From: Xiphophorus maculatus
Lineage: Eukaryota > Chordata > Actinopteri > Cyprinodontiformes > Poeciliidae
Direction: 5' to 3'
NCBI RefSeq assembly: GCF_002775205.1
Contig: NC_036458.1
Coordinates: forward strand, 4,680,560 to 4,744,559
Length of the DNA stretch: 64,000 nt
Shown: positions 21,301-27,300 of the stretch, one piece after another
Layout of the letters: the number at the start of each line of letters is the position of its first letter
How positions within the stretch are numbered: the stretch's first letter is position 1
Translations under genes and position numbers: made by a program
Notes under the pieces: model-generated
The model's database searches: none
Told to the model about the DNA's origin: nothing
What the model saw: the letters and a program-made list of their open reading frames with translations, nothing else

Positions 21301-24300
21301 AACAATGGAAAACGTCAAGCGTGACACAAAATAATCATCTATTTTACAAAAAATGTGATTTTCTTTTTCCTAAATCATCTGATGGCAAAAAAAGCTGATG
21401 ACAACCAAGCTTTTGTAATAAGTAGAGCCAGGTTTATCCAGAGATTTTTGCTCATTTTGATGCATCATCAGCTTTTTATAAATTTATTGAACTTGGCTAA
21501 ATATTTTCAAATGTTTTGAAAGAAAGTAACCCAATTCCTATTCAGATAACGAGCATAAAAGAACTAGATGCCAATAACCAGAGGCACGTAGAGTAACCAA
21601 AAATTGTGCTGAAGTAAAAGTAGCACTACTTCAACATATTTTACTCAAATAAAATAAAAATAGCCATACAAGAAATTACTCAAGTAGGAGTAATAAAGTA
21701 TTTGGTAAAAAGTCGACTCAAGTGCTGAGTATCTGATTAAATTATCAATCATTTAATATTTATAAATTACATCATCAGACAAACCAAAATATAAAGTTGC
21801 GTGGAAACTTTGGTACTTTAAGGACCAAAATGACAATAGTTCATAGAAGCAACAAAAATAACAAAATCAGGCAAAATAAATTTTTCCAAATTAGTTCAAT
21901 TAAAAACTTATGAAACTTTAACAGAAACTGCAAGTGTGTGTTTGTGTCTGGTGAATTTCTGGTTTAAACATTTTAGTTTTTCATTCAGTGGGTAGAAAAT
22001 CCAGAAATTTTACTCAAGTAAGAGTAGAAATACTTCCTAATAAAGTTACTCAAAGTACAGTGTAGTAATAATACTCCTAAAAGTAAATTTTTCAACAAAA
22101 GTTACTAAGGTAAATGTAACCCAACTCTGCCAATAACAGATATTTCTACCAAATGGAAAATGAAACAATTCGGACTAATTTAAATCCATAGAGCCATTGG
22201 ACACCCCTTACATGATTTAAACTCAACTGACCTGTTTTCTTGATAATTCCAGAACAAAGTCAAAACCCCCAAATCAAATTTAATCCAGTTTTCATGGACA
22301 GCGTCGTCGTATCCAAATGTTCCCTGCCTTGATGCTGTTTGGTCGCGGCTTCCCGCCTCCCCGCCCTTGGCTCCGCGTCCTCTAGATCGTCTTTGTCTTG
22401 CGTTTTGGGAAGAGGGCTTTCCGAAAAGACGTGGTGGTGGTTCCCCTGCTGTACGAGGCGCTGCCCAGTGAGATCTTGGTCTTCCCACTGGTGATGGTGG
22501 ACGAACCCAGAGACGTGGTGCTCCTTCCCCGAGAGATGGAGGAGCTCCCCATGGCCAGCTTGGTCTTCCCCCTTTTGATGGTGGTGTTGCCCAGCGTCAA
22601 GGCCGTCTTCCCCTCCGTGAAACTGGTGTTCCCCATTGTCTTCCTGACCCGGACTCGACGTTGGGGTTCGGGACTCACTCCACACCGAGCATGGCACAGT
22701 CATGCAGCTCGTCTCGGAGTTGGTCGTAACATGACCAGAATGCTAAGCATGGACGGTGCGACCCCCGTGTGGCATAAAGCCTCCGTTGAGCTGGTCTACG
22801 TGGGCTTTGGAAGGCCGCATACCACCCATGCGTCCCGTGAATGGACAGAGGCAGCCGTAGGTGGACGCAGCCTATCCGGGGGGACTCGGACAGTGGGGCG
22901 ATTGTCCCTCGGACACGACGACACCGCACGGTTGAAGGAGACATTGTTGAAAAACAGGACAGTCTGCGGTGACATCACTTTCTTCTCTGCCATTGTTCCC
23001 CTACAGCTTCTGATTGTAAGATGTCCCCTCTGTGCACAGCTGTAAGCGCCATATGTCAAATCAGCTGCTGTTTTTGTCCCAGAATGAAAATTCGATGTGT
23101 TTATCTTTCCCCATAGATCTGGATCTGAGGCTTTGATGGCCTCGCTTCTTATTACAGTCAACTAAAGCGATCAAAATGGCCAAAACTGAAATTCAGAAAT
23201 CATTTCAGTTAATTGAAATAAATAAAAACTGTAATTAATGGAGTAAATAGAAAAAAGGGAGCAAATCTCTATTTAAAAAATCTCAGAGGTTTTCTAGAAA
23301 AAAAACAAGGAAATGTCTCAGTTTGAAAAGTTCATAAATTAGCTAGAAAAAACTACAAATTTTGAGATAAATTTCTGAAATTTTGTACGAAAAACACTAT
23401 TAGATTTATTATTCTAAAAAGTTTAAAATTTGCTTGAAAATCTCAGAAAGTTTGAGATCAATCTCAGAATTTTCTAGAAAAACAGATAAATTTATAAATT
23501 TGAAGAGTTGAAAATGTGCTAAAAAAAATTCTGAAATTTTGAGATTAAACTCAGAATTTTCTAGATGAAACAAGAAAATTTGAGTTGTAAAGCTGAAGAT
23601 TTTCTAGAAAAATCTCAGAAAATTTCTGAAAACAATGTGGACATTCCTGAGTTTGAAAAGTCAAGTTTCCAGAAAATCTCAGATTTTTTTTTCCTGGCAG
23701 ATTCCCGGCTTTTCAAACAAGGAAAATTTTAAATAATAAAACGACGTCTTAGGCCAATATGGATAGGAAGTAAAAAGTCAAAAACCTACCTGGAAAAACC
23801 AAATTTTTCTAGAAAAAGACTTGGAAATTTCTGAGTTTCAAATTCAGAAATTCACAATTTTTTTTCTGAGGTTAATCTCAAAATTTCTAACTTATTCTTT
23901 CTAGAAAATTGTCAAATTTTCAAAGTCCAAAATTGTTTTGATTTTTATAGAAAATTTCTGAGATTAACCTCAAAATTTCAGTTTTTTGGCGGAAATTTAT
24001 GTGGCCCTAATATGCCGTTGTACGATCTGAGGTTTTGATTGCGTGTCTCTGAAGGTTAGTATAGTTAACTAAAACAAACAAAATAACAAAAACTGAAATT
24101 GAGAAAACATTTTTGCTAACTGAAATAAATAAAAACGGTAAATAAAGGGGAGAAACTACAACTAACTTCAACTATATCATAACACCAACTAAAACCACTG
24201 AGATTAAAAGAATTAAAATACTTTTGTTTTGGAATCTATTTATTAGCCTTACAAACTGATGTGAAATTTATTTATTTTCACACAAGCAGCTTACAGTGTC

Positions 24301-27300
24301 AGTTAGCTGTCCAGCAATAATTGAATAAATGTTTTGAAAATTGTGTTTTCTGTTGAGTAAACATAATTGCTTTTTGAATTTGCCACCTAAAAATGAACCA
24401 AAGTATAAAAAACTAAAACTATTGTTATGACTGGTAAGAACTAAACTGAAACTAAGCAATATTTAACTATTGCCCACTCTTAAAACTAACTGAATTAGAC
24501 AAACAAAAAATCACAACGAAATAAGCTATAATGAAAAGTCCAAAACTATCCCATTTTTTAATAACTAAACACAAAACAATCAGGAACAACCAGGCGAAGC
24601 AGAGTGTAGAGGTATTATCTTTATATGCACTATGACATTAATACACTTTTACAGTTTTATTGTGAATACAGCTTGCAGCCGAACCATGGGAATGCATCAA
24701 AGACCCACTGGACTCCTACTGGTCCCGGCTGCACAGAACGGGCGAATTGTTCTCGTGTCGCCACATATACATCACATCACATCTGTTCAAGCTTCCCCTC
24801 CCTACTGAGCTCAACACACCATAAAGCCTCATCGCATCACTGTCGCATTTGCATAACATCCTCTGCACGCTTTTGAACACGGGACTTCCCCCCTTTTTTC
24901 TGATTTAAAGACGAGTTAAAATCCCAAACATAGCAGCTGGTTGTGACTACTGACCTTCTAACACTGACCACACAGACACATCCACGAGCTTTTATTTGTG
25001 TGCTGGATTCACGTGTGAAAATCCCAGTAGATGTTGCTGTGCCTTTCCTTGCCCCTGATGAGAGTCGTCTTGACAACAGACACAGATTTGGTCCCGTAGG
25101 TAAAGGTCAGAGTCATGAGAGAGCTCGTGGTCTCCCCCCGTGTCACCGAGGTTTTAGCCACCGTTATGCTGTTGCTGCCCAAAGTTATTACGGTTTTGCT
25201 CCAAGAAAACGAGGATTTCCCCCAGGAGATGAACAACCTTGTCCTCAGGAACGAAACCCTGCCTTTGGTGAAGGAGGTCTTGCTTGACGAGAATGTAGTT
25301 TTCCACTCGTTGTCAGAGTCTTTTTTGGACTGCTTGGCCGCTTTGGGTGTCTTCGCCCTGGGCTCGGGGTCCCTCTCCATCTAGGTGGTCCTGCGCTTGG
25401 ACGTCAGCGCCTTGCGGAAGGAGGTGGTGGTGGTTCCCCGGCTGAAGCTGGCCCGTCCCAGAGCCACGGTCGTCTTTTGCCTTTGGATGGTGGAATCTCC
25501 CATGGAGGTGGTGGTCACTCCCCTAAAGATGGAGGACTTGCCTAAGGACACAGTAGTCTTTCCCCTGGCTATGGAGGTATTCCCCACTGCCAGGGCAGTC
25601 TTGCCCTCTGTAATGCTCGTGTTGCCCATTGAAGCGGAGGCAGCCTGGATGCCAGCTATCGCGCACGCCGCATAGCAGACCCTCTGCGGCGCAGAAAGGC
25701 AAGCATGTCAAGTCAAAAAGCCACACCGAAGCCGCTGCAGCTGCCCTAAATAGATCACACCACCATGTATAGATGAGGGGGAGGGAATTATTTGATCATG
25801 CTTTGATGCTGGCCGGTCCCTCAGAGAGACAAGACCCAAAGGGACCTGGAAGCGCGGCAGAACCAAGCAGACAGGGGGATAATTGTGTTGTTTTCATGAT
25901 AACAAAGCCGGAGCATTGAAGGGGGCGCTTTGTGCAAGCACACAGGACAATTGGGGTGACCTCAGTATGAGAAGATGGCGTGGTTCCCAAAAAAGAAAGA
26001 AAGAAAGAGAAAAGCCCTCCTCCCTGCTGTTGTTTAGATACAGTACTATGTTTGTCTGCTTCAGTACAGTATAGTGCTCAGCTGCACGGGGCCTGCAGCA
26101 CAAAACCCATAAAATTGGGGTATGTAATGTTTATAAAACGTTTTTTACATGTTTCTTAAAACCTCTGCTGTCTCCCTGTAGTAACTAGAAACAACCAATA
26201 AGATCCAGGAGGCGGGTCTTAGCGCTGTCAATTATGCTATTCCCCTTCCTTTCTGCTATGCTGCAACTTCTTGCAGACGGCTAGCCTGCTAGAAATGCTA
26301 AGGCTAGTTAGCATAGCCACCGATGATGCTGGATTAACGGCTATTCTGTAACAGTAAGTTATTTCTCCGCCATTAGCACATGTAGCAGTGAGTACATAGA
26401 TTGAATGACAAAGTTAAAACCCTCCTCCTGACTATGATTGGTTGTTTTTGACTGGAAGAGGTGTATTTCTTCAGACGGTAATAGTAGTACTGGGAGGACG
26501 ATCTTTTCGCAGATTATCTGTCTCATAACAGTCATGGTGAGTTTTAACAAATACGCAAAAAAACATTATTTATAAAAGTCCCATACTTCAGCTTTAACCT
26601 TTAATAGATGCAAAAAAAGGTAGATAGCTAAACTAGCAATGGTATAGTAGCAGCTATGTAATTGTAGCCTTGATCACGTCGAGTCCTTTCTGCTATGCTG
26701 CAGCTTTTCTGGACGGAAAAGTCCAGAGAGGGAAAAAAACAACATTAAACCCATTAAATAGCGATGCCGCAACAAAATTGTAGACCTGTGATAAACGCAT
26801 TTAGACGGAAACCCTAACGCATTTAGGGTCGCTGAAATAATAAAAACAGAATTTAAAAAAGTCAGAATTCTGAGATTAAAATCAGATTTTAATTTAAGAC
26901 AGTAAGGGTCTTAATTTTAGACAAATTTAAGAAAAACTTTTTTCAGAATGCTGAAAAAAAAAAGTTAGAATTCTAAGATTAAAATCAGAATTCTTTGGAA
27001 TTTTGAATTCTTTTTCAGAATTCTGAAAAAAGTCAAAATTCTGGAAAAAAGTTAGAATTATGATATCAAGATCAGAACTGCGAGGGGAAAAATGTCAGAA
27101 TTCCGGAAATCATTAGAATTCTGAAAATAATATTTGAATTCTCAAAAAAGTCTGATTAAAATTAGGATTCCAAACAAAATTCTGAATTCTGAAAAGTCCT
27201 AATTCTGAAAAACAAGTTAGCAATCTGAGATCAAAATAAAAATTCTGAGATAAAAAAAAAAAGTAAATTCTGAGATTAAAGTCAGATTTTAATTTAAGAC

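Follow-up and report, generated by a model that had tools for sequence, protein, structure and literature searches.

Does the first intron of rundc3a in Xiphophorus maculatus conceal protein-coding genes on its opposite strand? The window analyzed here, a stretch of 64,000 nucleotides, was located by genome search to positions 4680560-4744559 of contig 16 in the 704 Mb assembly. The original prediction, made from the letters of this window, placed two antisense frames of 84 and 82 amino acids in rundc3a intron 1, and their coordinates, strand, and lengths proved correct. These frames are called B and A. The prediction described the family as a pair, which holds for A and B, and overlooked a third heptad frame, C. 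Exons 1 and 2 of rundc3a were placed by tblastn using a RUNDC3A peptide as the query. Both lie on the plus strand and flank A and B, which are thus antisense within intron 1. Nested antisense genes within vertebrate introns are a known class. A, B, and C resemble this class in lying on the opposite strand of a host intron but differ in forming a tandem pair with a repeat that no known family matched above its cut-off. The probable answer is that they are nested antisense protein-coding genes, anciently duplicated and arranged head-to-tail. Gene 1 would be composed of A and C, with its end probably marked by the poly(A)-like hexamer near 24990, and gene 2 would be composed of B.

The proteins read from A, B, and C are small, basic, Cys-free, and Ser/Thr-rich, and are built on the heptad Gly-x-Thr/Ser-Ser/Thr-hydrophobic-x-x. 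Each frame is free of internal stops. The ATG of C lies immediately 3' of the TAG of A, and the two frames are in one reading frame. In the stretch profiled, the islands that carry the frames have a GC content of 51-60%, and the intron around them is mostly at 23-43%. GC content at third codon positions is 0.77 in A, 0.82 in B, and 0.72 in C, and 0.71 over 391 rundc3a codons.

The strongest evidence for coding comes from the comparison of A with B. Over 75 codons aligned without gaps, 52 residues are identical and 28 of these are encoded by different codons, close to the two thirds and the roughly 30 that had been predicted. Differences at codon positions 1, 2, and 3 number 20, 12, and 39 (chi-square P 3e-4), with second positions differing least, as claimed. 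A tblastn search gave a gap-free alignment of 81 residues at 67.9% identity. The proportions of nonsynonymous and synonymous differences (pN and pS) are 0.21 and 0.60, and the ratio of nonsynonymous to synonymous substitution rates (dN/dS, or omega) is 0.20 (bootstrap 0.06-0.39), with dS about 1.2. For this pair the ratio is not near 1. The proposal of a tandem-duplicated family under protein-level constraint is supported. When the 71 differences were re-placed neutrally, none of 5000 trials had 52 identities (mean 36, maximum 47), and a stop was created in 59% of them. Similarity begins at the ATG, again as predicted: 5 of the 30 preceding bases are identical, against 23 of the 30 bases from the ATG onward. 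A step of this kind is expected if translation truly begins at this ATG and the leader can vary freely. Purifying selection on the minus-strand reading frame of A and B is well supported.

The frames of the plus strand (22398-23045 and 25385-25675) were compared in the same way. They have 39 identities in 74 codons and a dN/dS of 0.60 (0.33-1.07), less well conserved than the minus reading, in support of the strand call of the original prediction. Third codon positions are common to the plus and minus frames, and an excess of third-position differences alone therefore cannot discriminate between the strands. Simulations were started from A, with 400 runs per setting. Minus-strand selection retained at least 52 minus-strand identities in 18 of its 400 runs, and neutrality in none. 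Under plus-strand selection, none of the 400 runs at each omega of 0.2, 0.4, and 0.6 had 52 minus-strand identities. The minus strand is supported as the coding strand.

Frame C shows a sign of constraint of its own. Its 12 heptads are in register, with a hydrophobic residue at position 5 in 11 of 12 and Ser or Thr at position 4 in 10 of 12. Base agreement between units surpasses that of shuffled codons at the first codon position (P 0.0014) and the second (0 of 5000 shuffles), though it does not do so at the third (P 0.56). In A and B, periodicity is present at all three codon positions and strongest at the second. Neutral decay of a repeat would leave an equal remnant at all codon positions, so C is evidenced internally as a kept protein. 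Protein-level constraint on C is supported by this codon-position periodicity.

The predicted 7-residue units are present as heptads. For A and B, however, a period of 14 residues, or two heptads, is the better description, since residue identity is 0.41-0.50 at lags 14 and 28 and 0.23-0.32 at lags 7, 21, and 35. At the heptad ends, E/R/R/R/R alternates with V/L/M/L/F in A, as does E/R/R/S/R with L/M/L/L/F in B. C has no lag-14 preference, and its identity at lag 7 is 21%.

The original prediction also proposed a beta-solenoid or stacked hairpins. A confident AlphaFold2 model favors hairpins for C; hairpins are not so favored for A, for which AlphaFold2 (two sequences) gave no structure and a predicted local distance difference test score (pLDDT) of 38. 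The C model (three sequences) has a mean pLDDT of 83.6, with blocks 31-120 at 92-96, and four of its five models score above 80. It consists of seven 12-residue strands joined by two-residue turns, and the faces of the strands mix polar and hydrophobic residues. The strands appear to be antiparallel, judging from the short turns and structural matches. In the hairpin register, 16 hydrophobic cross-strand pairs are formed versus 10.3 expected (P 0.004). A Foldseek search with the C model returned 604 matches, none at E<=0.001, so these matches give fold style only. The first of the best 50 is the open antiparallel sheet of apolipoprotein B-100 (probability 0.98, E 0.072, template modeling score by query 0.47), which differs from C in sequence (10% identity). 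Many of the other best 50 are hairpin sheets of pore proteins.

In such a fold, each 14-residue unit would provide a beta-strand and a Gly turn, and the position-5 side chains would build hydrophobic ladders across the strands. An open sheet with a basic tail or leader could act as a structural or surface-binding module, either by edge-to-edge assembly or by binding acidic partners, e.g., membranes or nucleic acid. A structural or surface-binding role for a small basic beta-sheet repeat protein is offered tentatively and is a long way from probable. N-myristoylation of the MG start was considered and rejected, as the start, judged by eye, does not fit the consensus.

Whole-genome protein and DNA searches of the fish's own genome left A and B as the sole clear relatives of each other, and the two GC-rich islands, used as DNA queries, matched only one another. 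Pfam, NCBIfam, and PHROGs had no match to the A/B/C repeat above a curated cut-off or with a convincing score; PHROGs searched with A gave unnamed families only (E 0.02 and 0.14). Rfam had nothing at gathering score within 15000-28500. Two short peptide patterns, suited to close relatives only, were scanned against IMG/VR (24 pattern matches) and GTDB genomes (76 pattern matches) with none confirmed in either, and a bacterial or viral origin was rejected on these scans. A search of the open-access literature did not find this locus, or such a fish repeat, described.

A different fold for A and B would be compatible with coding. The two could form a trimeric, left-handed parallel beta-roll like that of YadA, with the even heptads turned toward the trimer axis and the basic odd heptads on the outside. 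According to PMC9543794, the YadA head is a 14-residue layer with the motif GxNSVAIGAxSxAx. With the motif classes loosened by the analyst, this motif fits one register of A and of B at 40 of 45 cells each, and C at 36-37 of 54. A and B share with the YadA, SadA, and EibD heads the two-heptad period, the Gly and small residues, and unit ends that alternate between hydrophobic and charged. A matches SadA (E 2.3e-5, over 53 residues), CbpF (0.0027), and YadA (0.0032), and a profile of A and B matches proteins of the same kind. NCBIfam adhesin models are matched by A at E 0.002-0.009 and by B at E 0.008-0.06, far under their cut-offs.

Column shuffles of A nevertheless match adhesins too. In the PDB, both of two did so (best E 0.0007 and 0.022), at lower scores than A itself (23.2 and 18.6 bits versus 27.9). 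All three tried matched YadA_head under its cut-off, and a full shuffle matched nothing in either search. The adhesin matches thus point to a shared repeat style, and kinship is rated lower than E 2.3e-5 would imply. B alone reaches E 0.29 (SadA) and 0.65 (EibD), its best match being an unrelated low-complexity stretch (E 0.05), and C has no match. Pfam YadA_head (PF05658) scores A at 12.2 bits against a gathering score of 25, with B and C unlisted at E<=1. A YadA_head search of the fish's own genome gave nothing at E<=1, a weak test that missed A itself. C is modeled with long strands of 12 residues, there is no YadA-type head among its best 50 of 604 structural matches, and AlphaFold2 predicts no structure for A. 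The adhesins also differ in setting: A, B, and C lie at a vertebrate intron locus, are 82-123 amino acids long, and have no recognized anchor domain (no Pfam outer-membrane anchor barrel at E<=1). This is read here as a repeat style that A and adhesin heads have in common, not as demonstrated kinship, and a YadA-like roll is rather unlikely.

The original prediction had the stops of A and B coincide, which is approximately true. Strictly it is not, as in the ungapped alignment the TAG of A is opposite ACG in B and the TAG of B is opposite GAG in A; a global aligner sets small compensating gaps near codon 76. By BLAST, A/B DNA similarity reaches 27 bases beyond the stop of A, perhaps weakly farther. 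A local alignment of the A and B flanks has a score of 24, equaled by 1 of 500 shuffles. A trace of the C leader lies behind B in a different frame from B, and tblastn with C found no C-like heptads there. The order A-TAG-ATG-C, together with this trace, suggests that the ancestor had C after A, perhaps as one protein, and that the C repeats were lost behind B. The TAG of A may be a working stop, a readthrough site, or a recent break.

The last of these options leads to an account in which A, B, and C were long constrained, but gene 1 is now breaking at the TAG of A or both genes are recent pseudogenes. The in-frame TAG between A and C would fit such relict genes, as would the out-of-frame leader and missing heptads behind B. 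All three frames are free of internal stops, however, and A and B align gap-free over 81 residues, so that decay at this stage is considered unlikely. A single mRNA of gene 1 might also be translated across the TAG-ATG, by readthrough or by termination and reinitiation, into one beta-repeat protein with two domains or into a pair of separate proteins. That they would represent a previously undescribed family of 14-residue beta-hairpin repeats produced in this way is a speculative proposal.

It is very unlikely that the locus makes no protein and is a decayed 21-base minisatellite or DNA-level element with open frames as by-products. In favor of this reading, two adjacent 84-base units in B are 70% alike; two in A are 65% and 61% alike to the same reference. 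Other arrays of this genome also read as similar heptads: 13 of the weak-match loci (L003, L012-L018, L020, L024, L025, L027, and L028) translate as strongly repeating heptad-reading arrays. These share the 7-residue period with A, B, and C, and L003 has the style G-R/K-A-S/T-I/L. In contrast to A, B, and C, which Tandem Repeats Finder (score 50) did not flag, the arrays that were translated repeat almost exactly at the protein level. Against the minisatellite reading, the conservation is codon-position-specific, both between A and B and inside C, and neutral models fail in the re-placements (0/5000) and the simulations (0/400).

Two observations on these weak matches stand apart. The L003 array (contig 8, near 1190319-1190864) has a 258-codon open frame reading G-R/K-A-S/T heptads, and the adjoining exon resembles that of a short-chain dehydrogenase. 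Opposite-strand pairs of weak matches about 1.5 kb apart (C21:15970108/15971630, C3:13603433/13604913, C16:4324328/4325836, and C4:5963316/5964797) look like subterminal repeats of a single dispersed element; one member of each pair was translated.

Coding by the plus strand is highly improbable: its frame is open in both copies and the sites that vary most are its third codon positions too, and plus selection at omega 0.2 matched the observed low minus omega in 32 of 400 runs, but its identities and dN/dS are the poorer (39/74 and 0.60 versus 52/75 and 0.20), no plus-selected run gave 52 minus identities, the observed plus omega is outside the range simulated under plus selection at 0.2 (0.05-0.35), and the heptad pattern and codon-position signature are in the minus frame.

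Several results weigh against reading A, B, and C as nested antisense coding genes. The A/B inference depends on a single pair, whose dS is close to saturation. At 0.60, the observed plus omega slightly exceeds the range simulated under minus selection at 0.2 (0.17-0.56), and the 32 plus-selected runs with a minus omega at or below that observed count on the same side. In the C stretch, a second minus frame, with 2 stops, likewise has lag-7 hydrophobic periodicity (P 0.006). The sequence similarity of C to A and B is weak (E 0.44 and 0.298 in genome searches, 30-31% by MAFFT), so its place in the family depends on a common pattern and on adjacency. The TAG of A is interposed before C and makes the translation route of C ambiguous. 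Among the structural results, A has no predicted structure, one of the five C models is at 31, and a parallel in-register stack of C also yields 16 hydrophobic pairs. PMC11795689 reports that AlphaFold2 yields confident but false beta-solenoids for perfect random repeats; as the repeats of C are imperfect, this worry is lessened but not removed.

Poly(A)-like hexamers follow both C and B, which fits the coding-gene reading. The minus strand of the window has 114 AATAAA and 86 ATTAAA hexamers, so the AATAAA after C is mildly surprising and the ATTAAA after B hardly so. A scan with approximate splice matrices, which showed a site in only 4 of the 7 rundc3a boundary stretches used for calibration, found a fair acceptor at 25684, ahead of A. 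Neither a splice model nor a promoter model for the frames was convincing, and the splice scan gave no persuasive gene model. The features of the locus are collected in Table 1.

Table 1. Features of the rundc3a intron 1 locus, in window positions
Feature	Position	Strand	Source
rundc3a exon 1 (host gene)	15323-15430	+	tblastn
rundc3a exon 2 (host gene)	27428-27547	+	tblastn
Frame A, 82 amino acids, ten heptads then basic tail, TAG end	25381-25629	-	Open reading frame list, A/B alignment
Frame B, 84 amino acids, colinear paralogue of A, TAG end; ATG at 22636	22382-22636	-	Open reading frame list, alignment, tblastn
Frame C, 123 amino acids, charged leader and 12 heptads, TGA end	25009-25380	-	Open reading frame list, translation, AlphaFold2
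A-copy DNA similarity to B copy, 69%	25354-25631	-	BLAST
B-copy DNA similarity to A copy, 69%	22362-22638	-	BLAST
AATAAA, candidate poly(A) signal shortly after the TGA of C, then GT-rich stretch	24991-24996	-	
ATTAAA, weak candidate poly(A) signal, about 100 bases past the stop of B	22279-22284	-	

Elsewhere in the window, an exon at 9291-9581 (+), upstream of rundc3a, appears to resemble the STRADA pseudokinase. An open frame of 333 amino acids at 40591-41592 (-) has the look of an intact Tc1/mariner transposase. Two very similar frames, at 48454-48912 (+) and 55950-56555 (-), are assumed to be like the C-terminus of a long interspersed nuclear element (LINE) reverse transcriptase. The window also contains a 31-base minisatellite of 6.1 copies (49889-50078) and a 27-base minisatellite (32370-32425), the unit of which resembles its own reverse complement by eye.

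If nested antisense genes are present at this locus, vertebrate annotation would gain a small repeat-protein family concealed antisense in an intron, and C would be a natural beta-sheet whose heptads are imperfect. The layout A-TAG-ATG-C also offers a case in which readthrough or reinitiation can be tested directly. Codon-position-specific periodicity within one repeat protein can expose coding constraint without orthologues.

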